DNA from: a virus | Length of the DNA stretch: 22,956 nt | Direction: 5' to 3' (one strand) | Virus record (IMG/VR): IMGVR_UViG_3300021962_000689 | Location: 1 to 22,956 of that record | Part shown: positions 2,577 through 22,956 of the stretch, piece by piece | Position numbering within the stretch: the first letter of the stretch is position 1 | Layout: the number at the start of each line of letters is the position of its first letter | Program-made: the position numbers and the translations under genes | Notes under the pieces: generated by a model | Seen by the model: only the letters and a program-made list of their open reading frames with translations | Told to the model about the DNA's origin: nothing | Database searches by the model: none

Positions 2577-5150
2577 ATGGCTTTAGTTCTAAAAGACCGG
2601 GTCCAAGAAACGACCACGACAACGGGTACAAGCGACTTTACCCTTGGCGGAGCTGTCCTCTCCTACCAGGCTTTTTCTGCCATCGGCAACACTAACACCA
2701 CCTACTACACTGCGTTTGACTCCACCACTGGGGACTGGGAAGTAGGTATTGGTACTTACTCGACGACAGGCCCAACGCTTACCCGCGACACGATTCTGGC
2801 TTCCAGCGCTGGGGGAGCAAAAATATCTTTCTCTTCTGGGGTAAAGAACGTATTCTCCACGTACCCGGCTGAGCGTTCGGTTAATCTGAACTCTGCTGGC
2901 ACATACATCACCCCGTCTGCATTTGACACGGTGACGGCTAACACGGCCACATTGACTGCGGGCACGATCAGCACAACGCCGTCAAACAACACGGATATTG
3001 CAAACAAGCAATATGTGGACACGACGATTTCGTCCGGGATCACCTACCACGCGCCGGTTAAATACGAGGTTCCTAACACTACGGGAAACCTGAACGCTAC
3101 GTATAACCAGCCGGGTGGCCCAGGAGTTGGTGTTGGTGCTACGCTGACTAATGCAGGGACAAAAGCCGCGTTTGCTCCTGATGGCCCGACAGCCTCAATC
3201 GGGGATCGCATACTGGTTTATAGCCAAACAAACGGTTTTGAGAACGGTGTGTACACGGTTACCACCGTCGGAACTCCTGACCCCGGCGGCACAAACTGGG
3301 TGCTGACACGCGCCACTGATGCAGATACTTACGCCATCAAGAGCCCCAACGGTCTTGGCTTGGGCGATGCGTTCTTTGTTACATCAGGCAATACGGGTGC
3401 TGGTGAGACGTACGTCTGTAACACTGTTGGTGTGATTACGTTTGGAACCACGTCGATTGACTTTGTTCAAATCTCCAGCGCTCAGGTGTACAGCGCGGGC
3501 ACTGGACTGAGCCTCAGCCCGGCAACTACTTTCAATATTGCCAATACTGGTGTTACGGCTGCAACGTATGGCGCAGCGGGCACTGTCCCGGTGTTTGCCG
3601 TGAACGCGCAGGGCCAAATAACCAGCGTAACAGACACCGCAATTGCTATCTCCGCAGGGGCTGTTTCTGGTCTTGCAGCATCCGCCACAACGGATACTAC
3701 TAACGCGTCTAACATTTCTTCTGGTACTTTGCCAAGCGCTCGTATTTCTGGTTCGTATACCGGGATCACGGGTGTTGGAACACTTACGGCGGGATCTCTG
3801 GGTTCTGGATTTACCACGGTAGTTGCCGCACGCGGCGGCACAGGGCAGTCGTCCTACACTATTGGCGACATCCTATACGCCTCAACCACAACAGCTTTAT
3901 CTAAGCTGGCCGACGTAGCCACAGGTAATGCGTTAATTTCTGGTGGCGTGGGCGTTGCCCCGTCGTATGGCAAAATAGGTTTAACGACCCATGTTTCAGG
4001 TACCCTTCCCATTTCAAACGGCGGCACGGGGACAACGTCTACTCAGTTCGTAAACCTGACTACTAACGTTACCGGTAACTTGCCTGTTACCAATCTTGGT
4101 AGTGGCACCGGCGCTTCTGTGTCTACGTTCTGGCGCGGGGATGGCACTTGGGCTGCTGGTGTTTCTGGTCCTACTGGGCCTACAGGCCCGACAGGCCCTA
4201 CCGGACCCACAGGTTCTCCCGGGCCGACCGGCAGTCCTGGCCCCACGGGTTCTCCCGGTCCTACCGGCCCCACTGGCCCCACTGGCCCCACAGGGCTTGG
4301 CTACGCCGGATTGACTTCCACGTCTTCCGTTGCAATTGCTACGGGCTCCAAGACGTTTACTGTTAACCAAGCCCAAGGCACAAACGCTTTTGTTGTTGGT
4401 CAGTACATCCGTGTATTTAATACGGCCACACCTGCCAACTTTATGGCGGGCACAATCACGGCGTATTCCAGCACAACGCTCACTGTTAGCGTAGACTATA
4501 TTGGCGGTTCGGGCACTTTCTCCGCATGGACTATTACCGATACTGGATCCCAAGGCGCTACGGGCCCCACTGGCCCAACCGGACCTACAGGGGCCCCGGG
4601 CCCTACCGGGCCTACCGGCCCCACGGGTCCCACAGGCTCTCCTGGCCCCACAGGTGCTCCTGGCCCCACAGGTCCTACCGGCCCCACAGGTCCTACCGGC
4701 CCCACCGGTCCTTCTACGGCTATTAACGCAACGGCTAGTACGGGCGCCACAGTTCAATATGTAGTTGGTGTGGCGGCTGCTGGGTCTAACCAAACGCCTA
4801 TTGTCTCGACCACATCAGCGGTAACTTTTACCCCCAGTACCGGAGCGTTGACGGCAGTTTCCCATGTGTCCAGCTCCGATGAGCGGTTGAAAACCAACTG
4901 GCGCGCTCTGCCTCCTGACTTCTTGGCGCTGCTGGCTCAGGTAAAACACGGTGTTTTTGACCGTATTGATAGTGGAAATACGCAGGTTGGTGTTAGCGCA
5001 CAGTCCTTGCAGTCCGTGTTGGCGCAGTCGGTTGTTCCTGGAGACAAGGGCTATCTGACGGTAGACTACGGCCCAGCAGCGTTGGTCGCTTGTATTCAGC
5101 TGGCCCAGCGTGTTCTTGACCTTGAGAAAAAACTGGAAGAACGTAATTGA
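2577..5150 (+). CDS. Tail fibre with two collagen-like blocks and a C-terminal S74 chaperone domain
   Basis: The product is 857 residues. The N-terminus ([19 protein letters not shown]...) is the attachment region seen in many phage fibres. [13 protein letters not shown] and NGGTGTTS motifs, common in tail fibres, follow. A first Gly-x-y block covers residues 531-573 and a second covers 657-713, separated by a beta-rich domain of about 80 residues. The C-terminus has SSDERLKTN, the mark of the intramolecular chaperone (Peptidase_S74) domain. The likely Ser/Lys dyad is Ser767 and Lys772, five residues apart as in endosialidases. Self-cleavage before Ser767 would release about 91 residues ending in a coiled coil. 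The protein should trimerise and bind the host surface. Ribosome site GAGGA overlaps the previous stop. Confidence 0.9.
4167..4295 (+). repeat. Collagen-like Gly-x-y block 1
   Basis: There are 14 uninterrupted triplets, mostly Gly-Pro-Thr, with three Gly-Ser-Pro triplets that put Pro in the Y position. The block is expected to form a rigid trimeric triple helix in the fibre shaft. Confidence 0.9.
4545..4715 (+). repeat. Collagen-like Gly-x-y block 2
   Basis: There are 19 triplets starting GSQ, GAT and then mainly GPT, with GAP, GSP, GAP and a final GPS. Near-identical GGN-CCN-ACN units give local direct DNA repeats, which could allow length changes by slippage or recombination with block 1. 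Confidence 0.9.
4872..4892 (+). other. Predicted S74 self-cleavage site
   Basis: Codons for SSDERLK. By analogy with endosialidase chaperone domains, the second Ser (residue 767) is the cleavage-point residue and Lys772 completes the dyad. The spacing matches. Cleavage itself is inferred. Confidence 0.65.
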
Positions 5151-5692
5151 GTCACCTCCCAATCTGGTACATGGGCTCCGTGCCCGAGGACATCTGCGAC
5201 AAGGCGGTGGAGGACTTTTCCTCCTTGCCGAGCAAAGACGCCACCATGGGGGCTGACGGCGAGACTCGGGACAACGTCCACCGCAATACTACCGTTCGGT
5301 TTGCTGGCCCCAACCATTGGTTTGATAACTATCTAGTCCAGACAGCTTTTGCCGGTAATCAGGCTTGCCGGTGGGAATTCCACGTCACGGACAACGAGAA
5401 CATCCAGTTTGCCGAGTATGGGCCGGAGCAGCACTACCACTGGCATGTAGACGTTTTTCCCCTATCTGGTCTGCCCTTGGACCGGAAGATGACGGTGGTC
5501 TGTTTGCTGAACGATCCTGCCGAATTCACTGGCGGAGAGTTCCAGATTCGGCTATATTCCGAGTACACCGCACCGCTGGTCAAGGGGTCAGTGATTGCGT
5601 TTCCATCGTTTTTGGAGCATCGTGTGGTGCCGGTTACGTCAGGAGTGCGTAAGTCGGCAACAATGTGGCTGCGAGGCCCTCGTTTTCGATAA
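5147..5692 (+). CDS. 2-oxoglutarate/Fe(II)-dependent oxygenase (PKHD hydroxylase-like)
   Basis: The product is 181 residues. It carries the double-stranded beta-helix signature: iron ligands His100 and Asp102 (YHWHVD) and distal His158 (FPSFLEHRV), with Arg168 (SGVRKS) as the expected 2-oxoglutarate carboxylate binder. FTGGEF at 127-132 and [11 protein letters not shown] are typical of PKHD/PiuC-like hydroxylases. The family couples oxidative decarboxylation of 2-oxoglutarate to hydroxylation of a substrate. The start is TTG at 5147, overlapping the fibre stop TGA by three bases. It gives the natural N-terminus LPIWYMG; the alternative ATG at 5171 would remove it. Coupling to a collagen-like fibre hints at fibre hydroxylation. 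The substrate is not shown by sequence. Confidence 0.88.
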
Positions 5693-10480: not shown

Positions 10481-12655
10481 GTGCCATTACAGAAACTTCA
10501 GTTCCGACCGGGTGTCAACCGGGAATCGACCACGTTGGCCAACGAGGGTGGCTGGTTTGAGTCCGATAAGGTGCGGTTCCGTTCCGGCTACCCCGAGAAG
10601 ATCGGTGGTTGGGTTAAGGACTCCGGTACTGTTGTCGAGCCCGCTGTGCCGCCTACTGGGATGTTCTGGGGTATCTGCCGATCCATGTGGAACTGGGTAT
10701 CCCTGAACGGGTTCAACCTGCTGAGCCTTGGCACCAACCTGAAGTTTTATATCCAAAACGGTGTAGGCGGCTCCATCAACGACGTAACCCCACTTCGTAG
10801 CACTACGATTGCAGGGCAGGTAACTTTTGCCGCTACTTCTGGCTCGACCACCATTGTGGTCACCGACTCTGGCTGGGGCGGTCAGACCAACGACTTTGTT
10901 ACGTTCACCGGGGCGGTATCGCTAGGCGGCAACATCACGGCAGCCATTCTCAACAGCGAGTTTCAAGTTACCTATCTTTCTACTAGCACATACAGCATTA
11001 CAGCCAGCATAGCGGCCAACGCCAGCGATGTTGGTAATGGTGGCTCACTCACGGTAGCCGAGTATCAGATTGCCACAGGCGCGGACGTAGCTGGCTCTGT
11101 TAACGGTTGGGGTGCAGGTACTTGGGGCGGTGTTGTGGCGGCTCCCGGAACGAACACCGGCTGGGGTGTGGCAGCTGCAACGGGTATTAGTGTGCAGTTG
11201 CGCACATGGAGCCAGTCTAACTTTGGCCAGGATTTGATCTTCAATCCCCGTGGTGGCCCAATTTACTACTGGGCTTTTAACTCTATCGTACCCACGCAGT
11301 TTGACCGAGCTGTGCCGCTGACGCAACAGACGGTTACTTTTAACATTGCTACCTCCGAGGTCACGCTGGCCTCGTACTTAGATGAGGGCACGGGCGTCTC
11401 ATTCACTACCAACGGTGTACTGCCAATAGGTGTGCTGGCAAACGTAACCTACTACTTAGTGACCACAGCTACGCCTTTGGTTTATGCGCTGTCGTCTACG
11501 GTTGACCTACTTACGCCTGTTGTGATGTCGGGTTCTACGTCTGGCACAAACTACATGGTGGTGGCTGACGCGCCGTCAAAATGTAACCATGTCATGGTGT
11601 CCGACGCCTCGCGCTTTGTGCTGGCGTTTGGTGTGAACGACTACGGATCGACCACACAAGACCCGATGCTGGTTCGTTGGTCAGATCAGGAAAGCCCCAA
11701 TGTGTGGACGCCATCCATTACCAACCAAGCGGGTAGCTATCGACTGAGCCGGGGGTCGCAAATTGTCACCGCCATCCAGACACGACAAGAAATCTTGGTG
11801 CTTACCGACGCAGCCATTTATTCCATGCAATATCTTGGAGCGCCGTATGTCTGGGGATTCCAGATCATGGGCGACAACATTTCGATCCTTGGCCCCAACA
11901 CAGCTGCTACCGTCAACAACATTACCTATTGGATGGGTGTCGACAAGTTCTACATGTACTCCGGTCGAGTGGAAACCCTTCCGTGCACCCTCCGTCAGTA
12001 CATCTACGACGACATTAACGTCTCGCAGGGAGCCCAGGCATTTGCGGGAACCAATGAGGGTTACAACGAAATCTGGTGGTTCTATTGTTCTGCTACTTCT
12101 TCCACGATAAACAAATACGTCGTGTATAACTACTTAGAGCGCACTTGGTATTACGGCACGATGGCCCGTAGTTCTTGGCTGGATAGCCCGCTGCGCTCGC
12201 AGCCGATGGCGACCCCCTACGCCGGGACAAACGGCCAGCTGGTGTATCACGAGACGGGAAATGATGATGGTACGGTTGACCCCGCGCTACCTATCACCGC
12301 TTACGTGCAGTCCTCTGATTTTGATATTGGGGATGGCCACAACTTTGGTTTTGTATGGCGCCTGATCCCCGACATTACGTTTGACGGGTCGGATGTCAAC
12401 AAGCCCCAAGCTAATTTCACTGTGCGCCCACGCCAGTTCCCCGGCACCAACTACGGCACGGCAGACAATCCGGCGGTCAAGAGCACGCAGAACTACGCAG
12501 GCCAGCAGTCCTATAACGTGCAGCAGTTTACTGAGCAGGTCTACGTTCGTCTGCGTGGCCGTCAGATGGCGTTTCGTGTGGAGTCCACTGAGCTTGGTGT
12601 GGCCTGGCAGCTGGGAACCCCGCGTATGGATGTGCGCCCGGATGGTCGTCGATGA
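10481..12655 (+). CDS. Large conserved tail protein, nozzle/hub-like
   Basis: The product is 724 residues, starting at GTG with GGGGG just upstream. The N-terminus (LQFRPGVNRESTTLANEGGWFESDKVRFR) and C-terminus (WQLGTPRMDVRPDGRR) are hallmarks of a large structural family in uncultured aquatic podoviruses. The centre (SRGSQIVTAIQTRQEILVLTDAAIY, NITYWMGVDKFYMYSGRVE, EIWWFYCSA) has propeller-like strand repeats. Residues ~100-330 look like inserted Thr/Gly-rich beta domains. By size and by the lack of a tape-measure gene, I infer a tail nozzle or hub analogous to T7 gp12. That analogy is not demonstrated by sequence alone. Confidence 0.8.
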   Translation: MPLQKLQFRPGVNRESTTLANEGGWFESDKVRFRSGYPEKIGGWVKDSGTVVEPAVPPTGMFWGICRSMWNWVSLNGFNLLSLGTNLKFYIQNGVGGSINDVTPLRSTTIAGQVTFAATSGSTTIVVTDSGWGGQTNDFVTFTGAVSLGGNITAAILNSEFQVTYLSTSTYSITASIAANASDVGNGGSLTVAEYQIATGADVAGSVNGWGAGTWGGVVAAPGTNTGWGVAAATGISVQLRTWSQSNFGQDLIFNPRGGPIYYWAFNSIVPTQFDRAVPLTQQTVTFNIATSEVTLASYLDEGTGVSFTTNGVLPIGVLANVTYYLVTTATPLVYALSSTVDLLTPVVMSGSTSGTNYMVVADAPSKCNHVMVSDASRFVLAFGVNDYGSTTQDPMLVRWSDQESPNVWTPSITNQAGSYRLSRGSQIVTAIQTRQEILVLTDAAIYSMQYLGAPYVWGFQIMGDNISILGPNTAATVNNITYWMGVDKFYMYSGRVETLPCTLRQYIYDDINVSQGAQAFAGTNEGYNEIWWFYCSATSSTINKYVVYNYLERTWYYGTMARSSWLDSPLRSQPMATPYAGTNGQLVYHETGNDDGTVDPALPITAYVQSSDFDIGDGHNFGFVWRLIPDITFDGSDVNKPQANFTVRPRQFPGTNYGTADNPAVKSTQNYAGQQSYNVQQFTEQVYVRLRGRQMAFRVESTELGVAWQLGTPRMDVRPDGRR

Positions 12656-13326
12656 GCAACTTGTTTGTTTATACCGAGCAAGACCTCAACAGGTTCGTTG
12701 CTCCGCGTCTGGCAGCCGCCCCGGTCGAGTACGACCAGCGGTTTATGGATCAGTACACCAACATCCTGCGCCTGTACTTCAACCAACTGGACAGCTTTAA
12801 CAGCCAGCTACGAACAACAGCTTTGTCCCCCATCAATGATGGGTCGGCCATTTATTTCCCCAACGGGGCGTTTTCATCTTCGGCTTCACAAACGGCAGCC
12901 AGCACCACAGCGGCCTACGATATTACGTTTACTGACACCGATGCGTCTAACTACGTTTCGTTGGTAAGCGGGTATCAAGTAACTACTGCCAAAGCGGGGC
13001 GGTATAACTTTCAGTACAGTATTCAGTGCGCCAACCTGGCCAACTCCACGGAATCGATTGACGTTTGGTTTCTTTATAACGGCACCAACATACCGCGCTC
13101 CAACACCCGGATTGGTATGGCCGCCCGTAAGAACCCAGCAACGCCGTTCTATGCGGTAGGTACGGTGAACTTGCTTGTTGATATGGCCGCAGGGGACAAC
13201 GTCAGCTTACAGTGGCATACCACAAATACCAGCGCGTTTATCCAGTCAGAGCCCGTGGCGGCTACCCCAACACGCCCGGCAATACCGTCCGTTATCTTCA
13301 CGGCGACGTTTGTGTCAAAGATCTGA
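12652..13326 (+). CDS. Structural protein with C-terminal jelly-roll (C1q/TNF-like) domain
   Basis: The product is 224 residues, coupled by ATGA to the large tail gene. Residues 1-60 are helical and conserved in style (EQDLNRFVAPRLAAAPVEYDQRFMDQYTNIL), likely a docking region. Residues ~65-224 have the strand order of C1q/TNF-like jelly rolls in phages: FPNGAF, SQTAASTTAAYDITFTDTD, AGRYNFQYSIQ, IDVWFLYNGTNIPRS, and AGDNVSLQWHTTNTSAFI. Such domains form trimers and often bind host surfaces, so this may be a tail spike or capsid-surface subunit. Confidence 0.78.
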   Translation: MSNLFVYTEQDLNRFVAPRLAAAPVEYDQRFMDQYTNILRLYFNQLDSFNSQLRTTALSPINDGSAIYFPNGAFSSSASQTAASTTAAYDITFTDTDASNYVSLVSGYQVTTAKAGRYNFQYSIQCANLANSTESIDVWFLYNGTNIPRSNTRIGMAARKNPATPFYAVGTVNLLVDMAAGDNVSLQWHTTNTSAFIQSEPVAATPTRPAIPSVIFTATFVSKI

Positions 13327-13362: not shown

Positions 13363-14655
13363 ATGGGTACTGGTGTAGGTGAAGCCGCCCTGGCGGCAGA
13401 AGCGATTGGGGCAGCTGAAGCTGCTACTGCGGGTGCTGGCTTTCTCGAAGGCATGGCGGGTGTCTCTGCGCTTGAAGGTGCGGGTGTTGCCGGTCTTGGT
13501 CTTGGCACGGGCGCGGGTCTTGGTACCGCGCTGGCGGGGGCTGGTGCTGGCGGACTAGGCGCACTGAGCCCTGCTTTCCAAACCGCCCTTGGGCAAACCG
13601 CCGCTGTTATGCCGGAAGTTGCAGCCCAGACGGCTCAATTTGCCAATATGGGCGCTATGCCCGGCGTTGATGCCGCTTTGGGTGCGGGTCAGATTGGTGA
13701 TCCCGCTTTGTTGCAAACGTTAGGTCAGGGCGCGGGTGAAGCTGCAACGCAGACGTTAAACCCAATCAACTACCTGCAAGACGTCAACGCCACGATGGAG
13801 TTGAATATTCGTCCTGAAGATATTGTTGATGCCGAGACTTTAGCCCCCAAAGTTGCAACGCCCGCTACGCCGACCCCACCACGTGAGCCCGGAATGTATA
13901 CCGCCGAGCCTGGGTGGGCATCTAAAACAGCTCCTACTACAACGCAAAGAGCCGGAGGTATTGGCGACATCCTCAAGAACGCCACACAGCCCTTGCAAAA
14001 CTGGTGGGAAGACCAGAACACATTGACAAAATACGGCCTTGGCGCCACCGGCGCGTTGCAAGCCGCCAAATACCTGAACAAACAGCAAGGCGTTGCGCCT
14101 GCTGAGAAGTACAGCGGCCCGCTGTCCAAGTTTACATACAGCCCCGACACGTACCGTCCGTATACGTATAAACCCTATGCTGCTGGTGGTCCGGTGGAAG
14201 AGATGTCCAACCGCAACGCTATCGGGGCCAATACGGGTTATCCCCAATCTGACATCCAGCAAGGCGCCTACGCTACCCCCTGGCAAACCCCCGTGTCACG
14301 CAATGTCGTGGCAGGTGCAGGAGATGTCGGTGTTGACCAGATGACGGGTATGGAGCGCATGGCGGGTGGCGGTATTGCCAATCTGGGCGGCTACTCTGAT
14401 GGTGGGCGTCTGCTCAAAGGCCCAGGGGATGGCATGTCTGACAACATCCCCGCTACGATTGGGCGTAAGCAACCAGCCCGTCTGGCCGATGGTGAGTTTG
14501 TGGTTCCGGCAGATGTTGTGTCTGGTCTGGGCAACGGCTCCACGGACGCGGGCGCCAAGCAGCTGTACAAAATGCTCGATAAGGTCCGCTCCGCTCGTAC
14601 CGGCACCAAGAAGCAAGGCAAGCAGATCAAGCCTGAGAAATACACACCCGCATGA
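13363..14655 (+). CDS. Gly/Ala-rich internal virion (ejection-type) protein
   Basis: The product is 430 residues. Residues 1-75 are almost only Ala, Gly and Leu with a few Glu, a weakly hydrophobic region that could contact membranes. The middle has a Pro-rich stretch (TPATPTPPREPG) and Tyr/Pro repeats (YSPDTYRPYTYKPY). The C-terminus has MAGGGIANLGGYSDGG, GPGDGMSDNIPA and ARLADGEFVVPADVVS, motifs I associate with phage tape-measure and internal proteins. With the nearby muralytic gene, an ejected internal protein is inferred. Ribosome site AGGAG is 6 bases before the ATG. Confidence 0.75.
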   Translation: MGTGVGEAALAAEAIGAAEAATAGAGFLEGMAGVSALEGAGVAGLGLGTGAGLGTALAGAGAGGLGALSPAFQTALGQTAAVMPEVAAQTAQFANMGAMPGVDAALGAGQIGDPALLQTLGQGAGEAATQTLNPINYLQDVNATMELNIRPEDIVDAETLAPKVATPATPTPPREPGMYTAEPGWASKTAPTTTQRAGGIGDILKNATQPLQNWWEDQNTLTKYGLGATGALQAAKYLNKQQGVAPAEKYSGPLSKFTYSPDTYRPYTYKPYAAGGPVEEMSNRNAIGANTGYPQSDIQQGAYATPWQTPVSRNVVAGAGDVGVDQMTGMERMAGGGIANLGGYSDGGRLLKGPGDGMSDNIPATIGRKQPARLADGEFVVPADVVSGLGNGSTDAGAKQLYKMLDKVRSARTGTKKQGKQIKPEKYTPA

Positions 14656-15083
14656 AACTGACGGTTCAGCACGTCGATACAAACCACGTCCAGCAAGTCT
14701 GGCCGCTGGTGGAGCCTTTCCTGAACGACGCGCTGACTAAGGGTGTGGGCTTCCCCGACTGGGCGGCTTGCTACAACATCCACCACGTCCAGCAATTTGT
14801 GACAGGTGGGCAGTGGCTCCTCTTGGTGGCAACCGACGAAGAGAATAAAATCCAAGGGGCGGCCACCGTGTCGTTTATCAACTACCCCCTGCACCGTGTG
14901 GCGTTTGTCACCTGTATTGGGGGCAAACTTATTTCCAGTCAGAACACCTTTGAGCAGCTCAAGGCAATCTTGAAAAGCCGAGGCGCTACAAAAATCCAAG
15001 GGTCAGGACGAGACGCCATCGTCCGTTTGTGGAAACGCTACAACTTTGAACCCCGCAACACTCTGGTCGAGGCACTTCTGTGA
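14652..15083 (+). CDS. GNAT-like N-acetyltransferase, tandem copy 1
   Basis: The product is 143 residues, coupled by ATGA to the upstream virion gene. It follows GNAT strand order: an N-terminal helix pair (VWPLVEPFLNDAL), strands GQWLLLVATD and IQGAATVSFI, a strand then turn (VAFVTCIGGK), a helix (FEQLKAILKSRGA), and a final helix (VRLWKRYNF) leading to FEPRN. The usual acetyl-CoA loop (Q/R-x-x-G-x-G/A) is not clear; only CIGGK sits in the expected place. It may be an active enzyme of unknown target or a GNAT fold with another job. Confidence 0.7.
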   Translation: MKLTVQHVDTNHVQQVWPLVEPFLNDALTKGVGFPDWAACYNIHHVQQFVTGGQWLLLVATDEENKIQGAATVSFINYPLHRVAFVTCIGGKLISSQNTFEQLKAILKSRGATKIQGSGRDAIVRLWKRYNFEPRNTLVEALL

Positions 15084-15487
15084 GTCTGCACCATATCCTC
15101 CCGCACCAACTACCCCAGGTTTGGGCGAAAGCAGCACCGTTGCTGCAAAAGGCGATTGACCTTGAACCAGACTTAATCACGATCGAGCAGGTTGAATACT
15201 CTGTTCGTACAGGCCGTACGTTTCTTTTGGTGTGGGAAGAACCCGGGGAGGGGATTACTGGCGCGGTAACCGTGGAGTTCATTGACTACCCGCGAGAACG
15301 CGTGGCCCATGTGAATTTGATGGGCGGTAAAGGCGTTGTAAGAGATTACGTTTTTGACGAAGCCAAGGATTGGATGAAGTCTTTTGGCGCAACAAAAGCA
15401 CAATGTTGGGCCAAGGGGTCATTGGTTCAAATGTATGAAAAGATGGGCATGACCAACACCCATCAGGTTATGAGGATTAACCTATGA
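15080..15487 (+). CDS. GNAT-like N-acetyltransferase, tandem copy 2
   Basis: The product is 135 residues from GTG 15080, which overlaps the previous stop (GTGA). It is a divergent paralogue of its neighbour. Shared marks include TFLLVWEE (LLLVATDE in the other), GAVTVEFIDYPRERVAHV (GAATVSFINYPLHRVAFV), a GGK turn, a helix ending in FGATKAQ, and a last helix MYEKMGM. The acetyl-CoA loop is again atypical (MGGKGVVRD). Two coupled copies within a virion operon suggest a heteromer or a duplicated modifying enzyme. The substrate is unknown. Confidence 0.7.
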   Translation: MSLHHILPHQLPQVWAKAAPLLQKAIDLEPDLITIEQVEYSVRTGRTFLLVWEEPGEGITGAVTVEFIDYPRERVAHVNLMGGKGVVRDYVFDEAKDWMKSFGATKAQCWAKGSLVQMYEKMGMTNTHQVMRINL

Positions 15488-16620
15488 AGCTGCTGAATTT
15501 TCTCTTTAAGTTTTTAACGGGTCAGCAGTTTGCGCTGTACCTTGGTGGTGGCGGTGGTGGTTCTCCGGGCCCGACTACGAGCACAACGCAAACGTCAAAC
15601 ATCCCCGAGTACGCACGCCCGTACGTGGAGACCATGCTGGGCGCTACCCAGCAACAGCTGTTTAATACCGCCCCCGGTCCCGATGGCACTACGCAGATCA
15701 CAAGTGTTAAGCCTTATCAGGCGTTTGGTGCGCAAGTAGACGGCGGTCAAGCGGGTCTTGGCCCCGGTGAAATGGCTGCGGCGCGTTCTGCCTATGCTCA
15801 ATTTGACCCCCTGCAAAACCAGGCGTACCAGACGGCAAGCGGTTTGGAAACCGGCACCGCTATGCAAGCCGGTATGGGCGGAACGGCTGCTGGTACGGCA
15901 CAAGCTCTGGGTGCGGGACAGCAATATGCGCAACAAGCCACAAACCCCAACGCAATCTCTGCATACATGTCGCCGTACATGCAGAACGTGGTGGACGTGC
16001 AGCAGCGCGAAGCCCAGCGCATGTCGGATATTGCCGGGACGCAGCAGCGCGGTCAGGCAACACAAGCTGGGGCTTTTGGCGGCAGCCGTCAGGCCATTAT
16101 GGAGGCCGAACGTCAGCGCAATCTGGCCACGCAACAAGGCAACATCCAGGCTATGGGGCTACAGTCCGCGTTTGATCAAGCTCGGCAGGCCCAGCAGTTT
16201 GGCGCCAATCTAGGTCTTCAAGGCGCCCAGACAGGTATTGCTGGTGCAGGACAGATGTTTGGTCAAGGCGCGGGCAACCTGGCTCTGCAAAACCAATATG
16301 GCGGTCAGCGACAAGCGTACGACCAGAACGTCCTGAACCAGGCCATCCAGAACTACGCGATGCAGCAACAGTATCCGCAGCAACAGCTGTCGTTCATGAA
16401 CGCTCAGCTTCGCGGTCTGCCCATGCAAGCAAGCACGACGCAGTCGTATCAGGCCCCGCCAAGCTACTTGTCCCAGGCGGCAGGTTTGGGTATGTTGGGC
16501 TATGGCCTCAACAGAGCAGGCGCCTTTGGTAAGAAGGGTGGCATGCCCAAGGACTTCGAGAAGAAAAAGATGGACGACACCCCCGGCGGCTTGCAAGCCC
16601 TGGCCCTGTCGAAAATGTAA
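15484..16620 (+). CDS. Gln/Ala-rich internal virion protein
   Basis: The product is 378 residues, with ATGA coupling to the GNAT pair. The N-terminus is short and hydrophobic (MKLLNFLFKFLTGQQFALYL), followed by six Gly. Residues ~90-320 are a long Gln/Ala/Gly-rich helical region with ANAISAYMSP-like and QQREAQRMSDIAGTQQRGQATQAGAFGGSR-like segments (the latter matches virion proteins I recall from aquatic podoviruses). The C-terminus is Lys-rich. No enzymatic motif is seen. Low complexity and position next to a muralytic protein suggest an ejection or internal-core component. Confidence 0.7.
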   Translation: MKLLNFLFKFLTGQQFALYLGGGGGGSPGPTTSTTQTSNIPEYARPYVETMLGATQQQLFNTAPGPDGTTQITSVKPYQAFGAQVDGGQAGLGPGEMAAARSAYAQFDPLQNQAYQTASGLETGTAMQAGMGGTAAGTAQALGAGQQYAQQATNPNAISAYMSPYMQNVVDVQQREAQRMSDIAGTQQRGQATQAGAFGGSRQAIMEAERQRNLATQQGNIQAMGLQSAFDQARQAQQFGANLGLQGAQTGIAGAGQMFGQGAGNLALQNQYGGQRQAYDQNVLNQAIQNYAMQQQYPQQQLSFMNAQLRGLPMQASTTQSYQAPPSYLSQAAGLGMLGYGLNRAGAFGKKGGMPKDFEKKKMDDTPGGLQALALSKM

Positions 16621-16629
16621 GGAACTGTC

Positions 16630-18729
16630 ATGGCAATGAACCCCCAAAACGTGTTGTCACAGCTCCGCATGATGGACGACCAGCAGTTGCAGCAGTATGC
16701 TGCAATGCACAAAAACGACCCGTTCATCTTTCCCCTGGCGTTCCAAGAAAGCCAGACGCGCAAGCAGATGCGTGCCGAAAGCCAGGCGATGCAGCCCCCA
16801 CAACCGAAGGTAGCCGACCAGGCCCTGGCGCAGATGGCCCCGCAGCCCCAACAGCCGCTGCCTGAGAATGTGGGTATTGGCCAACTGCCTGCCGACAACC
16901 TCAAGGGTATGGCCACGGGCGGCATCGTGGCGTTTGATGACGGTGGTGAGGTGCCTGGTTACGCGGATGGTGTGGCTGTTAAAGACCCTGTCCAAAGATT
17001 TGCAAACCAGTACCGTGCAGTGGCTGAGCAGGTTGGCCAGCGTCTGGGTGTTGATCCCGGTGTTTTGATCGCTCAGTGGGGGCATGAGACTGACTGGGGT
17101 CGGAAAACAGTTGGTAAATACAACTTTGGCAACATCAAAGATGTGACCGGCAAAGGCCCAACCGCGTATGACAAAATGGAAAAGAGCAAGTCTTCTTACA
17201 AGTCTTACGACTCGCCGGAAGCATTTGCCAATGACTACGCCAGTTTGATTGAACGCAACTTTCCCAAGGCAATTGGGGCGGGCTCCGACGTCAAAGCGTT
17301 TTCTGCCGGGTTGCAAGAAGGCAAACGCGGGGCGTACGCAACGGACCCCAACTACGGCGCCAAGCTGGAAAAGACGTTTATGTCGATGATCCCTCCGGCG
17401 CAAGCTGCTGCGGTTTCTGTAGACAAAGCCAGCGCCATCCCTGGGCAGAGCGTAACCGCTCCTGCCAAACAACCCGAGGGCGGGTTTATGTCTGCGGACA
17501 GCTTTCAACGTGGCGCTGAGGCGCTTGGTCTTTCGCGTGATGTTGGGCGTAATGTTTTCAACACGATGATGGCCCCAACGCCGTTGGCCCCCGCTACTAC
17601 GGTACCCAAAGCAGGGCCTGGTCTGTATGGCCGCGCTGCGGCTATGGGCGAGCGTATCTACGACAAGCTGTTCCCCGGCGCTGGCCTGTCCAAAGAAGGT
17701 ATTGCAGCATTGCGTGCAGAGTCAGAACTGGCCCGCAAGACCACGCCTGAAGCACAGCTCCTACTGACCGGCCCCCAAGCCAAACTGCCTGGAACCACTA
17801 TCCCGGTCACGCAAGCCGGTGAGGGTATTACCAGCCTGGTTCAGCCTGCTCGCATGGTACCTCCCGGACCGGAAGCCACACGCCTGGAACAAATGGCCGC
17901 AGCCGCCAATACTCGCAAGGCGGCACAAGCCGCGCAAGGCGCTGAAACCGGCACGACAGCCACCAAAGCCGCTGGTCTGGCGCAAGATGTTGCCGCTGGT
18001 GAAAGCGCAGCTGAGAAGATTCAGAAGGCCTCGATGCTGCGTGAGGCAGAAGAAGCCGCGCAACTTACATCCGCAGCCCAACGCGCTCAAGCAGCCAAGA
18101 CAGGTGCCGCCTTGACTTCTGCTGCGGCAGGTGCTGCTGGAGCTCTTGGTGGGGGCAATGCTCCTGGTACCGGTGCAGGGCTTGACTACGAGACCGGGTT
18201 TGAGGATTACGTCAAGCAGATGCCCAAGGAAGATAAAACCGAGTTGAAAGACCTGGGTAGAGAAACCGCCAAAGATGCGGGTATTAAAACCAAGGGTTGG
18301 ACCGGGGACGACTTCATTGCCATGGGCTTGGGTATTTTGAGCGGGCAAAGCCCCAACGCCCTCACCAACATCGGTGAAGGCGGCCTGAAAGGCCTGGCCA
18401 TGCGTCAAGCACGTATCAAAGAAGAAGCCGACACCGCGTATAAAGAAGCCCTGGCTAGACATTACGGTGTGGACCCGTTTGTACAACGTCTGCAAGCACT
18501 CAAAGACCCCGAGAACGTCAAGATGTTCAAGACGATGAAAGACCTGGAACGCGAGCCCATGACCAGGGAGGCTGTGTTCAAGCAGTTCATGTCGTCGCCG
18601 CTAGCGTTGGGCGTAGATCCAAAAGATTTGCTCGCAGCATTCCAGAAATATGTACAATCGTACGAGTCCGTTCTAGGACCTATTGGTGGGTTGCCGCAGG
18701 GTGTAGTTGTTACCCCAAGGGCCCCATGA
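16630..18729 (+). CDS. Virion-associated muralytic protein, GH73 glucosaminidase-like
   Basis: The product is 699 residues. Residues 1-50 are a helical start with a Gln/Met-rich run (LSQLRMMDDQQLQQYAAMHK). A Gly-rich linker (MATGGIVAFDDGGE) lies near residues 94-107. Residues ~120-255 form a lysozyme-like domain of FlgJ/GH73 type: LGVDPGVLIAQWGHETDWG with likely catalytic Glu153, KYNFGNIK, SYDSPEAFANDYASLI, and YATDPNYGAKL near Tyr236. Residues ~255-500 are Ala/Pro-rich and low complexity. Residues ~510-699 are helical and include GDDFIAMGLGILSGQS. It probably cuts cell-wall glycan during DNA entry. Ribosome site AAGGA is 6 bases before the ATG. Confidence 0.85.
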   Translation: MAMNPQNVLSQLRMMDDQQLQQYAAMHKNDPFIFPLAFQESQTRKQMRAESQAMQPPQPKVADQALAQMAPQPQQPLPENVGIGQLPADNLKGMATGGIVAFDDGGEVPGYADGVAVKDPVQRFANQYRAVAEQVGQRLGVDPGVLIAQWGHETDWGRKTVGKYNFGNIKDVTGKGPTAYDKMEKSKSSYKSYDSPEAFANDYASLIERNFPKAIGAGSDVKAFSAGLQEGKRGAYATDPNYGAKLEKTFMSMIPPAQAAAVSVDKASAIPGQSVTAPAKQPEGGFMSADSFQRGAEALGLSRDVGRNVFNTMMAPTPLAPATTVPKAGPGLYGRAAAMGERIYDKLFPGAGLSKEGIAALRAESELARKTTPEAQLLLTGPQAKLPGTTIPVTQAGEGITSLVQPARMVPPGPEATRLEQMAAAANTRKAAQAAQGAETGTTATKAAGLAQDVAAGESAAEKIQKASMLREAEEAAQLTSAAQRAQAAKTGAALTSAAAGAAGALGGGNAPGTGAGLDYETGFEDYVKQMPKEDKTELKDLGRETAKDAGIKTKGWTGDDFIAMGLGILSGQSPNALTNIGEGGLKGLAMRQARIKEEADTAYKEALARHYGVDPFVQRLQALKDPENVKMFKTMKDLEREPMTREAVFKQFMSSPLALGVDPKDLLAAFQKYVQSYESVLGPIGGLPQGVVVTPRAP

Positions 18730-18753: not shown

Positions 18754-21700
18754 ATGCCGCAATATACAGTTCAGATTCCTGGCAAGGGGACATTCGATGT
18801 CAACTCACCCACGGAACTTACAGATGAACAAGCGTATATGGCGGTGTTGCAGCAGTTGCAACCAGCTGCTCCTCCAGAAGATCAGGGTAAACCCGAAGGC
18901 GGTTTCATCCCGTCGCTCAAAGCAGGTGTTTCTGGCGTAAAGAGTGACATTGCCGCCCTGGCCGGGCGTGCTGGCCTGATGGATCTTGCCAAGGCTGAGC
19001 AGATCCTGGCCGAAGAAGAGAAGTACCGCCAACGCACGTTTGCGCCTACTACCGAGGGCTGGACCGAAGCCCCCTGGACCAAATTCAAAGAAACCCTGGG
19101 CGGCTCACTGCCGTACATGGCTGCACCTCTTGCAGCCGGTTTGCCTGGTGGGGCTGTAGGCCTGGGGCTAGCTGGGTTGACATCTGCCGCACAGTTCACT
19201 GGCTCCAACATTGGACGCCAGATGGAGACCGGTAAGACCCTGGGTCAGACGGAACTTGGAACCGCTGCGCTAACGGCTGTCCCTCAAGCCGCGCTGGACA
19301 TTGTGTCTATGCGCATGATTCCCGGTATCCGCAATATCTTTGGCGCCGCAGGCAAAAAGCTGACGGTAGAAGAAGCCGAGCAGGTTGCCAAGCAAGGGCT
19401 GGCCGGAACGCTCGGAGATTACGCCATGCGCACCGGCAAAGCTGCCGGTATGGAGGGTTTGACGGAAGCCAGCCAACAGGTACTGGAGCGCCTGCAAGCA
19501 GGCCTTAACATTGCTGACGCAGACGCCCGTTCCGAGTACTTCGACAACTTTGTAGCTGGCGCTATCCTGGGTGGTACGTTGGGTGTGCCGGGTGTTTACG
19601 GTGAGCGCGGGCGGGAACAACGCGAAGCCAAGGCTATTTTGGCAGCACAGCAGGCGCTTGCACAACGCGCCGCAGCGCCCGAGGCGCAGCCTACCGAAGA
19701 GGCTATCCCAGAACCCACACTGCGTCAGCCAACAGTTACGCCGGAAGAAGCGGCTGCTGGCGAGGTAGCTCCCCGCACACCCAAGGCAGCTAAAGGCGAG
19801 GCAGCTCGTGCCCGCAAGCTAGAGAAAGAGCAGCAGGAGTACCTCAAACGCTACGCTCTGATGCAGGCCCAGCGTGAGAAAGATACCGCTGAGTACGAGC
19901 GCATCAAGGCAATGACGCCGGAAGAGTATGCGCTGGAGCAAGCCCAAGAAGTACCGGCCACCCGCAAAGGACCGCGTGGTGCAATGCCTGAGCCTGTGGG
20001 TATTCAGCCGATCGCGCCGTACAGCGAGGCCCAGAAATTTGCCGCAACCCAGATTAAGCTAGCCCAGGACCGGGAGCCCTACGCCGACGTTGGCAGCTAC
20101 GTCGACTACATCCTGGCAAAGCCGGAGATGGCTCGTGCGTTGGTTGCCGCAGGCTTACCGATCCCCGGCTTGACCCCTGCCCAGAGCCAACGTGTGTTGA
20201 ATTCGTTGGAGTCCACGCTTACCCTCCAGGACAAGGCCGCCGCCAAAGAGGCAAAAATTGCCGGAAGCCAGGCTACGTTAGCGGCGCAGCAACGCCTGGG
20301 TCAGGTGGAAGGGGAAGAGCAAGCCGCCCTGGAAGCCCAACGTGCGGAAGCAGACAGACTTGCCCGGGAGGCAGAACAGGCCGACCAAGACGCACGCCGT
20401 GCACAACGCATCCAGCCCGAGGTTGAGGGCATTCGCCGTCTGGGACGTGTCCCGGAGGGCAGTTTCTCCGAAGCCAACCGCATCGCTGCCGAAGAACGTC
20501 TGGCCAAGCGTGACCATGAAGAAGCCGTGGTGGAGGCGCTTGTAGGCACGCTGCCGCGTGAGACAGGGAAGATCCTGCCCGGTACGTTGTACCGTGGGCT
20601 TGGCGGTAAGAAAGCCAGCATCGACGACTTGCGTGCGCAGCTCAAGATAGCCTTGGCTACCAAGGATAAGGCTACTGCTCAGAATCTGATCCGTGAGCTG
20701 CGCAGTAAAGAGGACCTCGGTACCGATCTCACAGCCGATGCTGGCCAGGCTACGGCTGAGCTACAAGGCTTGCTAGGCACAAAACCAGCAGATACCACCG
20801 CGCAAGAGAAAAAGGCGGTGTCCTATGCCGACACCCAGCGCATGCTCATGGTTGAGCTAGCCCGCGTTAAAGCCCTTGCCGGGCGTATTGGTCTGCCGGA
20901 AACCCAACGCGAACGCGTTAGCGCCATCAAAGAGCAGTTTGCCGAGGCGCATGCTAACGAGATCAATGCTCGCCGTGCTATGTTTGGTTTGCCTGAGATG
21001 GCGGACTGGGAGCGTGGCGAAGCGCGTGCCCGAGCCATGGAGGCACTGAATACGCTGGATAACAACTGGGGGCAGTTCAACAACCCGGTTACCAGCGTGC
21101 GTCAGCTTCAGCGCATCGTGCGCAAGGCCACATTTGACAACGTCCTTGATGCCGCGCAGCGCTTTAACTTGGCCGAAGCCGCCAAGACCGAGCAAAAGAA
21201 CGAGCCTCGCCGTGGCCAGCAGTTTTTCTTTGAAGACGAAGCAGGCGAGCGCATTGAGGGCAAGACGATGGAAACGCCCCGGGAGACCGGGCCGCGTATT
21301 GCTGCTCCTGCTGAACTGGCTTTGCGTGGTGCACCCCGCCGCGCTGCCGAGGACAAGCAAGATGCCCTGGACCTGATCGAGCAGGCGTTGTCTACGGCTG
21401 ATCGCCGCACCCGTGCAGCACCGGCAGTGGGAGAAAAAGCCCCCGCCAAAGTGGGGTCGTTGGCCGAGATGGCTCGTCTGTTTGAGCAGGACAAAACAAG
21501 TGGCAACGCTGCCAAGATGGACCAGGCGTCCATCGACTTGCTTGAGCGCCTGCGTGAGGCGCTGCCTGGTTCGACCGATCCCGAGTTTGCCAAGCTAGCC
21601 CGTGAGCAAGCGCAACAGGTGCTGGAAGGCAACCTGCCTAACCCGTTTGCCGTGCGTGATCTGGACGAGATGATGCGTGCGCAGGAGGCCGCAGGCCGTA

Positions 21701-22956
21701 GTGCAGCACCCGCCTTGAGCGCAGCAGAGACCGAACGTGTTGCTCGTGGTGAGGCTAAGTTTGAAGCGCAGCCCCAGCGGGAGTTGTTTGGCGACATGCC
21801 CCAGACGGTGCGTGACACCGTGCGTAACTTCCAGAAGTTGCTTGAGTCTGGTCAAGTCCAGAAGCTGCGGGAGGACATCGAGAAGCGTCGTCAGAACAAC
21901 ACCGACGCGTTGCAGCGTCTAAGCCGGGAGCTACCTACCGCAACCAACAAGTTGCGCAAAGCCAAGGCGCACTACACGTCAAAGCTCAAGACAGCGCAGA
22001 AGTCCGGTACTGTACTGCACAACTTTAAACAAGAGTTTGAAGAAGACCTGGGCGCTATTAGCCAGACGGTGCAAGCTCTTCAGGCTGCGCGTGATAGTGC
22101 CGCCATAGCAGTACAAGACATTGAGGCTATCAGGACGTTCCTGCTGTCTGAGCCAGCAGACATGAGGACTTTGATCAACGCAAGCAATGCGCTCAAGCAA
22201 GAGCCTGCTCTGCGGGCAAAGCTGAAGCAGGCGGAAAAAGAACTTGCTATTGGTAAAGAGCTTGAAGCTGCTATCCGCGCAACGATTGCTGCCGACGACA
22301 CGCTGGTCAAACCGCTGCAAAAGCGCATGGCGGCAGCCAACAAAGACCTGTTCTCTGCACAAGAAGACCTGGCCGAGGCAAACAGAGCCCTGCAAGCAGA
22401 GAAGCAACAAGCCGCCGCAGCTGAAGCCGCTGAAAAAGCACGTGCTGCCAAGGCAGAGGAAGAGGCCGCAGTTACCGACCAGACTAAACCCACGCCGGAA
22501 CCCGTGTGGCGTGGTGCGCTACAAGCTGGGCGTGAGGGCCTGAACCTGCCAGGTGTGCGTCTGGAGAAAGACACCTCCAACCTTAAGCAACAGATTGCGG
22601 AAATCCGCAGCGCCATGGGTAGCCTGGACGAACAGATTGACAACGAGACAGACGCTGACCGCAAGGCTGAGTTGCAGGCAAAGCTGGACGAGCAGAAGCA
22701 AAAGCTGGATACCGTCTATGCCAACGCTCCGGTTGTTAAGACCGAGTTGCTAACCCGCAAGGCTGAGAAAGAAGCCCGTGAGTTTGATGAGGCCCAGGCC
22801 GCTGCCTATGATGCGGCTTCAGCGCGGCGTCGCAAGCGCAAGGGTGAGAAGGCGCCCAAGCTACAACCTGTTAAGCGTATTGGTGCTTACCGTGATGTAA
22901 GAACGAACCAGATCGTGCAGCCGCTCAAACCCACGCCGATGGTGGAGCCCGCAGCG
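18754..22956 (+). CDS. Giant helical internal virion/ejection protein (3' partial)
   Basis: The frame runs from ATG 18754 (AGAGGG 4 bases upstream) to the window edge without a stop, at least 1401 residues. The first ~30 residues (YTVQIPGKGTFDV, ELTDEQAYMAVLQQLQ) form a small domain found at the start of many phage internal or tape-measure-like proteins. Residues ~110-190 are hydrophobic and Gly-rich, and GLTEASQQVLERLQAGLNIAD follows near 235. From ~290 onward the protein is Ala/Glu/Gln/Arg-rich helix with long coiled-coil stretches, especially 950-1250. No enzymatic domain is visible in this part; one could lie beyond the edge. It may be a polyvalent ejection protein. Confidence is high for coding and low for role. 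Confidence 0.85.
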   Translation, partial: MPQYTVQIPGKGTFDVNSPTELTDEQAYMAVLQQLQPAAPPEDQGKPEGGFIPSLKAGVSGVKSDIAALAGRAGLMDLAKAEQILAEEEKYRQRTFAPTTEGWTEAPWTKFKETLGGSLPYMAAPLAAGLPGGAVGLGLAGLTSAAQFTGSNIGRQMETGKTLGQTELGTAALTAVPQAALDIVSMRMIPGIRNIFGAAGKKLTVEEAEQVAKQGLAGTLGDYAMRTGKAAGMEGLTEASQQVLERLQAGLNIADADARSEYFDNFVAGAILGGTLGVPGVYGERGREQREAKAILAAQQALAQRAAAPEAQPTEEAIPEPTLRQPTVTPEEAAAGEVAPRTPKAAKGEAARARKLEKEQQEYLKRYALMQAQREKDTAEYERIKAMTPEEYALEQAQEVPATRKGPRGAMPEPVGIQPIAPYSEAQKFAATQIKLAQDREPYADVGSYVDYILAKPEMARALVAAGLPIPGLTPAQSQRVLNSLESTLTLQDKAAAKEAKIAGSQATLAAQQRLGQVEGEEQAALEAQRAEADRLAREAEQADQDARRAQRIQPEVEGIRRLGRVPEGSFSEANRIAAEERLAKRDHEEAVVEALVGTLPRETGKILPGTLYRGLGGKKASIDDLRAQLKIALATKDKATAQNLIRELRSKEDLGTDLTADAGQATAELQGLLGTKPADTTAQEKKAVSYADTQRMLMVELARVKALAGRIGLPETQRERVSAIKEQFAEAHANEINARRAMFGLPEMADWERGEARARAMEALNTLDNNWGQFNNPVTSVRQLQRIVRKATFDNVLDAAQRFNLAEAAKTEQKNEPRRGQQFFFEDEAGERIEGKTMETPRETGPRIAAPAELALRGAPRRAAEDKQDALDLIEQALSTADRRTRAAPAVGEKAPAKVGSLAEMARLFEQDKTSGNAAKMDQASIDLLERLREALPGSTDPEFAKLAREQAQQVLEGNLPNPFAVRDLDEMMRAQEAAGRSAAPALSAAETERVARGEAKFEAQPQRELFGDMPQTVRDTVRNFQKLLESGQVQKLREDIEKRRQNNTDALQRLSRELPTATNKLRKAKAHYTSKLKTAQKSGTVLHNFKQEFEEDLGAISQTVQALQAARDSAAIAVQDIEAIRTFLLSEPADMRTLINASNALKQEPALRAKLKQAEKELAIGKELEAAIRATIAADDTLVKPLQKRMAAANKDLFSAQEDLAEANRALQAEKQQAAAAEAAEKARAAKAEEEAAVTDQTKPTPEPVWRGALQAGREGLNLPGVRLEKDTSNLKQQIAEIRSAMGSLDEQIDNETDADRKAELQAKLDEQKQKLDTVYANAPVVKTELLTRKAEKEAREFDEAQAAAYDAASARRRKRKGEKAPKLQPVKRIGAYRDVRTNQIVQPLKPTPMVEPAA

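Follow-up and report, generated by a model that had tools for sequence, protein, structure and literature searches.

The window analysed here is the whole stretch of 22,956 nucleotides that forms positions 1 to 22,956 of the IMG/VR virus record IMGVR_UViG_3300021962_000689. Within its virion genes lie two adjacent genes, here termed A and B, which an initial annotation made from the sequence described as a tandem pair of divergent, GNAT-like paralogues without a clear acetyl-CoA loop; according to it, 4-base overlaps link the two genes with one another and with the gene on either side. The place that they occupy between the upstream and downstream genes is called the slot. The genes and features at the slot are as follows.

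10481..12655, + strand: nozzle/stabilization-type virion protein of 724 residues, anchor of the module on its upstream side (phrog_3287, tblastn)
13363..14655, + strand: Gly/Ala-rich virion-module protein of 430 residues, whose conserved C-terminus is the left edge of the slot
14652..14655, + strand: ATGA overlap of the upstream gene's stop (TGA within it) with the start of A, read directly
14652..15083, + strand: A, GNAT-fold protein of 143 residues (AlphaFold, Foldseek, VIA-align, motif scan)
15080..15083, + strand: GTGA overlap of the GTG start of B (15080) with the stop of A (15081-15083), read directly
15080..15487, + strand: B, GNAT-fold protein of 135 residues with a GTG start (AlphaFold, Foldseek, VIA-align, motif scan)
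15484..15487, + strand: ATGA overlap of the downstream gene's start with the stop of B, read directly
15484..16620, + strand: downstream virion-module protein of 378 residues, translationally coupled to the slot

The three overlaps are present as described (ATGA at 14652, GTGA at 15080, ATGA at 15484), and A and B are indeed divergent paralogues, 33% identical over 127 residues (E 1e-20). Both match a single gene, gp47 of the Methylophilales phage Venkman, at 42.8% and 32.6% respectively. Relatives of A are encoded at 64 loci and relatives of B at 125, of which 80 were kept. A and B are real genes; the ratio of non-synonymous to synonymous substitution rates (dN/dS) was 0.12-0.21 in three of four comparisons for A, the fourth being saturated, and 0.065 for B in the one of five comparisons that gave a value, with dS near saturation.

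The GNAT fold and its cofactor loop

Models of A and B were built with AlphaFold from alignments of the window and viral-contig proteins, with a predicted local distance difference test (pLDDT) of 88.6 and a predicted template-modelling score (pTM) of 0.82 for A, and of 92.7 and 0.85 for B. In both models, strands and helices come in the order typical of GNATs. In a Foldseek search of the PDB, all of the best 50 matches listed for each model were what we take, by entry title or established knowledge, to be GNAT acyltransferases, and the top whole-chain matches of Foldseek and VIA-align were GCN5, NatC/NatD, RimI, Ard1 and other acetyltransferases. The best VIA-align result was GCN5 for both, with Z 13.5 for A (1qst, root-mean-square deviation 2.6 over 127 residues) and Z 14.1 for B (1q2d, 2.8 over 127 residues). 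The GNAT likeness read initially from the sequence is borne out by these confident models; neither a non-GNAT fold nor a universal tie to another pathway was seen.

The acetyl-CoA pyrophosphate loop [QR]xxGx[GA] is a hallmark of the GNAT family. A scan for it found none in 71 unique B proteins and two among 39 unique A proteins, both ahead of the loop (offsets 61 and 64), in keeping with the absence of a clear acetyl-CoA loop noted initially. The loop between strand 4 and helix 3 reads GGKLI(S) in nearly all A proteins and GGKG(I/V) in most B proteins, and B of the window carries GGKG in place of the canonical motif. A tyrosine in helix 4 is present in many GNATs; it is retained in B (xMYEKMG; MYEKMG in the window), while A carries a tryptophan (xRLWKRYNF). 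Columns conserved across A and B are, in A numbering, W17, G53, L57, G69, P79, G90, G91, G111, A112 and Q116. Curated GNAT sequence models matched neither protein, Pfam giving nothing and NCBIfam nothing useful. B weakly matches the acetyltransferase family phrog_1249 (E 0.007), a relative (L183) reaches Acetyltransf_10 at E 4e-4 with 20.8 bits, below the cut-off of 23.6, and the best PDB sequence match of profile A6 is the acetyltransferase 1vkc (E 0.002). Because the hallmark motif is missing, A and B are, on their models, best filed as GNAT-fold proteins and not as GNAT enzymes. In close relatives A and B stand in for one another though B keeps the more enzyme-like residues of the two, which weakly suggests that classic catalysis is not essential.

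Occupants of the slot and the leader behind it

Loci were fetched by searches with A, B or neighbouring genes, and the counts below describe this fetched set, not natural frequencies. By tblastn, 66 loci carried A only, 77 B only and 4 both. By profile, 246 loci gave a match, from which 33 incomplete and 45 duplicate loci were dropped; the 168 distinct flanked loci left comprised 83 with A, 61 with B, 20 with X (weaker A/B relatives), two BA, one AX and one AB, the last being the window only. A single copy is therefore usual (164/168).

As judged from gene content, the slot between nozzle-side and ejection-side genes is exchangeable, being filled by A, B or X, by other GNAT families, by non-GNAT genes or by nothing. 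With the conserved upstream gene as anchor, the next gene was A, B or X in 52 of 78 loci (A 23, B 3, X 24, BA 1, AX 1). Among the 26 others, 25 were inspected and gave 12 C-type GNATs, 6 D-type GNATs and one sulfotransferase-like gene; the slot gene was missing in 4 and lay beyond the contig end in 2. With the nozzle gene as anchor, A, B or X followed in 26 of 80 loci (A 15, B 5, X 5, A+X 1), and 29 were too short to see. The other 25 held two further GNATs (L281, with Acetyltransf_1 above cut-off, and L317, with phrog_1249), phrog_21390-like open reading frames (ORFs) in 5, three of them scanned, and a sulfotransferase-like together with a phrog_21390-like ORF in one; the next virion gene followed directly in 16, and one was ambiguous. 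Phages with an empty slot evidently have no need of a gene there.

The C- and D-type GNATs form one group (hhalign 98.2%), together with BcepIL02 gp65, Pavtok gp23 and Mx8 p53, and match phrog_4470, a family of acyl-CoA N-acyltransferases (Bcep22 type) filed in the class 'moron, auxiliary metabolic gene and host takeover'; a PHROG scan of A and B gave no phrog_4470 match. Profile comparison of A/B/X with the C and D types was negative (hhalign; A6 against A4 0.2%, A6 against A5 1.0%), and a single common ancestor of all slot GNATs was rejected on this ground. Two GNATs of other families, CRP-901 gp34 and that of L281, likewise scored about 0 bits with the A/B/X profile.

Several occupants were noted in their own right. 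The sulfotransferase-like ORF (Sulfotransfer_3 E 0.0076, phrog_10855) lies at 9296-9802 of L190 and from about 11961 of L314, and an annotated phosphoadenosine phosphosulfate (PAPS) reductase, BcepIL02 gp67 (L253 8332-9051), stands one gene past the GNAT in Bcep22-like phages, so that sulfur-related genes recur near the slot. The phrog_21390 protein, of unknown function, helical-looking and with a WDDLxDKD motif, fills the slot in L288 (13298-13792), L292 and L304; it also follows A in several A loci and has one relative in Achromobacter phage CF418P1.

Relatives in isolated phages were sought with the A/B/X profile among 780 ORFs of 14 phage loci. Matches were Venkman gp47 (154 bits), the Thiohalocapsa phage gene TPMD04_33 (124.5 bits), HTVC023P gp80 (52.0 bits), LUZ24 gp54 (24.1 bits, E 1.2e-6) and NV1 gp50 (18.6 bits, E 5.8e-5), while the T7, DSL-LC04, CRP-901, Caulobacter RW and CF418P1 loci gave none. 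The last three matches are remote homologues that occupy the equivalent position in their phages. A and B thus belong, as interchangeable members, to a phage-specific GNAT-fold family with LUZ24 gp54, HTVC023P gp80 and Venkman gp47. Outside phages, 84,980 genomes gave just two weak relatives, and a host-derived gene was rejected as the source. Venkman EXVC282S gp47 follows a 'stabilization protein', as the second gene past it, but is present in one copy, is annotated hypothetical and comes from a phage of a cultured bacterium. LUZ24 gp54 and NV1 gp50 (Bruynoghevirus, Vicosavirus) resemble A and B in profile, size and place between a nozzle-type gene and virion proteins, but they score only 19-25 bits, are single-copy in NV1 and LUZ24 and sit on a long tree branch. 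In LUZ24 the order is gp56 (nozzle-type, 'phage particle protein'), gp55, gp54, gp53 ('phage particle protein'), with overlaps of 4 bases for gp55/gp54 and 20 bases for gp54/gp53. A search with NV1 gp50 brought up relatives in 108 phage records (106 Pseudomonas, 2 Bruynoghevirus), with at least 80% of the query covered in 107; the LUZ24 gp54 type is annotated 'hypothetical protein', or 'N-acetyltransferase' in phage Ka1.

The slot is also coupled to what follows. An ATGA or GTGA overlaps the stop of the last slot gene in 153 of the 168 distinct loci (A 80/83, B 59/61, X 11/20, BA 2/2, AB 1/1, AX 0/1). The conserved core of the downstream protein starts near ...QTSNIPEYARPYVE, and ahead of it many unrelated short leader types are seen (YSRR, WLTGxxF, KRKLLPxSGY and others); a glycine run closes most of them. 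Two features of the downstream gene are concerned in the window:

15484..15543, + strand: 20-residue N-terminal leader of the downstream protein, WLTGxxF type (leader-type count)
15544..15561, + strand: six-glycine run of the downstream protein, probable recombination junction (blastn against L003-L005)

Filled-slot loci have 20-40 residues ahead of the downstream core, with a glycine run at their end (50/54 loci); in loci with an empty slot the core begins almost immediately and no such leader is found (0/8). This association gave a Fisher p of 1.5e-7 on related loci, with 94 of 156 anchor loci dropped (15 duplicates, 24 short, 24 without the end of the upstream gene, 31 in which no core was recognised). 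Near-identical C-type loci make up eleven of the 17 'other' rows; L180, which is the same contig as L006 and carries A, was entered as 'other', and L275 and L294 are doubtful. The WLTGxxF leader was seen in 8 of 61 B-only and none of 83 A-only loci, whereas YSRR leaders follow both (A 30/83, B 16/61); a fixed leader type for each of the alleles A and B is unsupported as a rule, YSRR being shared. A model can be drawn in which the slot protein and the downstream leader are a cognate pair, the leader being bound or N-terminally modified on emerging during the same passage of the ribosome. Leader and glycine linker would then exist only in filled-slot phages, and slot gene and leader would form one mobile cassette recombining at the glycine run; such a pairing is considered unlikely.

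Possible roles of the slot proteins

The explanation tentatively favoured is that A and B are a late, non-packaged GNAT-fold factor which acts, catalytically or not, on neighbouring virion proteins at the time of assembly; position, coupling and absence from the virions of relatives are the reasons for this preference. Both would be made late and in fixed ratio with their coupled neighbours, from a podovirus-type late operon at the 'T7 gp13 position', and would be left out of the finished virion. In the infected cell they would act during assembly upon the adjoining virion or ejection proteins, either by binding and folding them in a chaperone- or scaffold-like way (compare the Pfam name of T7 gp13) or by acylating them through an unorthodox cofactor loop. 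The initial annotation had proposed that the pair modifies virion proteins or is a structural derivative of the fold; the first, and the second in a structural or chaperone form, thus stay as alternative forms of this reading. The annotation's interpretation as a whole is partly supported, and the observation behind it is confirmed.

Evidence on packaging comes from relatives. For LUZ24 virions, the phage tf paper (PMC3517423) gives nine proteins identified by mass spectrometry, and the LUZ24 record holds seven 'phage particle protein' genes which, with the portal and the major head protein, make nine. If that label marks the proteins detected by mass spectrometry, as we infer, then gp54, labelled 'hypothetical', falls outside the nine and the flanking gp53 and gp56 inside. 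In the part of the JC1 report available (PMC9144972), the acetyltransferase gp63 is missing from the virion Table 6, in which its neighbours gp61 and gp64 are listed, and 11 virion proteins were found for phiPsa17, including gp6.7, gp7.3, gp12 and gp14-16, the gp13 homologue not being detected. JC1 gp63 and phiPsa17 gp13 are positional counterparts only, unrelated to A and B by profile. Packaging of A and B is disfavoured because these three proteins were undetected in virions.

A GNAT at this place has already been published. In the excerpts available, the Cobavirus GNAT, which neighbours internal virion proteins, is one that 'could correspond to gp13 from T7' (PMC6775973), ORF39 of vB_PaeM-G11, an acetyltransferase, sits between gp12 and gp14 homologues, and the ZP6 acetyltransferase ORF12 follows tail tubular genes; for RCA phages, the GNAT was interpreted as a host-metabolism gene. 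GNATs directly beside nozzle or ejection genes thus include those of Cobavirus/SIO1 (pc40), ZP6, vB_PaeM-G11, JC1/BcepIL02 (gp63/gp65), Pavtok (gp23) and Mx8 (p53). The BcepIL02, Pavtok and Mx8 proteins belong to the other group (C; hhalign 0.2% to A/B/X), and several same-place GNATs match standard GNAT models whereas A and B do not. Within the literature searched, which was largely open, the family of A, B and LUZ24 gp54 is new, as are the exchange of genes at the slot and the link between leader and slot. T7 gp13 (PF11090, 'probable scaffold protein Gp13') is like A and B in size and in its place between gene 12 and the ejection genes 14-16. A Pfam scan gave no PF11090 match for A or B, homology was rejected (hhalign) and position alone is claimed; T7 gp13 was also not among the 50 BFVD matches listed, which proves nothing.

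Several points weigh against the assembly-time reading. The T7 gp13 analogy is positional only, its match to the A/B/X profile having an hhalign probability of 0.6%, and the JC1 gp63 group is unrelated to A/B/X by profile (0.2%). The pelagiphage Baldr is a counter-example to a universal GNAT place, since its C/D-group GNAT lies between the terminase and portal genes, outside the slot. The virion lists are imperfect witnesses: LUZ24 gp55 likewise has no particle label, the JC1 list also misses gp62, which its authors discuss, and absence from a proteome is compatible with a low-copy protein. The association between leader and slot is confounded by kinship. Finally, about 16 of the 51 visible nozzle-anchored loci have nothing in the slot and 6 have non-GNAT genes there, and the gene is therefore dispensable in many relatives; such dispensability would be expected of an accessory enzyme more than of a core assembly factor, and an exchangeable, sometimes empty slot favours an accessory role.

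Such a role is the core of the strongest alternative, in which A and B are late-made accessory acetyltransferases that act on host proteins, in Rac-like takeover or counter-defence, and are merely parked in the late operon. It would account for an optional slot that swaps with unrelated GNATs, a sulfotransferase-like gene and phrog_21390 genes, and for C/D-type occupants filed under host takeover, and JC1 gp63 is termed a moron gene in the available part of its authors' report (PMC9144972). A precedent is Rac (LUZ19 gp28), like A and B a small phage GNAT, which in the available account (PMC7552054) needs its acetyl-CoA pocket for cleavage of the RNA polymerase (RNAP) alpha subunit, by a host ClpX/HslU route. 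That functional, canonical pocket is missing in A and B, however, and the same account places Rac beside the phage RNA polymerase, upstream of the first structural gene, whereas A and B lie downstream of the nozzle-type gene; this distinction was drawn from the description of Rac, not its sequence. The place beside ejection genes also recurs in distant phages, and host homologues amount to the two weak matches. PADLOC gave zero matches for 9 slot proteins, and a defence or anti-defence role was rejected on this result. A host-directed enzyme is accordingly regarded as possible but doubtful.

In a further alternative, proposed initially, A and B would be packaged with the ejection proteins, injected and active at entry. 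Coupling to virion genes on both sides would suit it, but the published virion lists of LUZ24, JC1 and phiPsa17 speak against it, the last two concerning positional counterparts only, and it is improbable. What probability these three leave falls to duplication, artefact and other readings.

The assembly-time reading carries some consequences. GNATs beside podovirus ejection genes are usually called metabolic or 'moron', yet they recur at one place in distant phages. If the GNAT fold does serve the assembly of ejection proteins, that use of the fold would be new and would fill in a step missing from the construction of the DNA-ejection machine; if A and B are enzymes, acylation of virion proteins would be indicated. 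With LUZ24 gp54 in the family, function is directly testable in a well-studied laboratory phage.

Origin of the pair and the flanking genes

A and B here look like two alternative slot genes joined by recombination, as comparison with relatives suggests. The nearest relatives (L003-L005; 85-94% identical over aligned segments) carry A followed directly by the downstream gene, with no B. Four B-only loci (L120-L122 and L124) are 77-92% identical over most flanking segments and about 70% identical in the part that holds B and the beginning of the gene behind it. When the window was compared with L003-L005 by blastn, similarity resumed exactly at 15544, at the glycine run; L004 carries a leader unlike that of the window. 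Because this leader type is confined to B and the A-only similarity resumes at the glycine run, B and the leader probably moved together, with the junction at that run. Recombination would have given an A-type phage a B-type cassette, consisting of B and the leader of the protein behind it, and so have left both in the window. A (99/95) and B (100/100) fall into distinct clades in the tree, where L186 and L303 share a single A+X lineage, and L072 and L204 carry B with a third, A-like clade. Two-copy loci thus show three combinations: AB in the window, B with the A-like type (L068/L070/L072, L204) and A+X (L186, L303).

An assembly chimera of A-type and B-type contigs would fit the rarity of pairs (4/168), but it is very improbable, as the reading frames and the 4-base overlaps run unbroken through both joints and other two-copy loci occur in contigs of different samples (L068, L070, L072, L204). 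Least probable of all is a genuine local duplication whose copies have become subfunctionalised; adjacency and 33% identity might suggest it, but it was rejected since L003-L005 hold A only, A and B each cluster with single-copy genes of other phages and the pairs are of three kinds. Of the 'tandem pair', then, adjacent paralogues stand, and local duplication does not appear to, with two separate clades and nearly always one gene per phage.

The remaining genes of the module are as follows.

12652..13326, + strand: protein of 224 residues, of unknown function, in 4-base overlap with the nozzle-type gene
16630..18729, + strand: glucosaminidase-like domain protein of 699 residues, probable internal virion/ejection protein
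18754..22956, + strand: large open-ended ORF of 1401 residues to the contig end, probable ejection/internal protein, its role taken from position

The product of 10481..12655 matches the virion structural family phrog_3287 (E 4.7e-57) and, by tblastn, phage 'stabilization protein' annotations (for example DSL-LC04, 37%); its nozzle identity is proposed by homology. Scans of Pfam and PHROG gave no convincing match for 12652..13326 and none for 13363..14655 or 15484..16620. The product of 16630..18729 matches PF01832 (E 3.6e-18) and the endolysin family phrog_3513 (E 2.2e-23). The place of A and B among virion genes holds, and their flanking genes are probably ejection genes by synteny with LUZ24 and by this glucosaminidase domain.

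Further upstream, 1437-2567 encodes a protein with repeated 'LTGVxATGxVG' units, and 2577-5150 a protein of 857 residues with long collagen-like GPTGPTG repeats and a peptidase S74-type, chaperone-like C-terminal region, probably a tail fibre. At 5147-5692, with tail-fibre-type genes on both sides, is a 2-oxoglutarate (2OG)-Fe(II) oxygenase-like ORF, and annotated oxygenases are found at similar places in HTVC023P and DSL-LC04.

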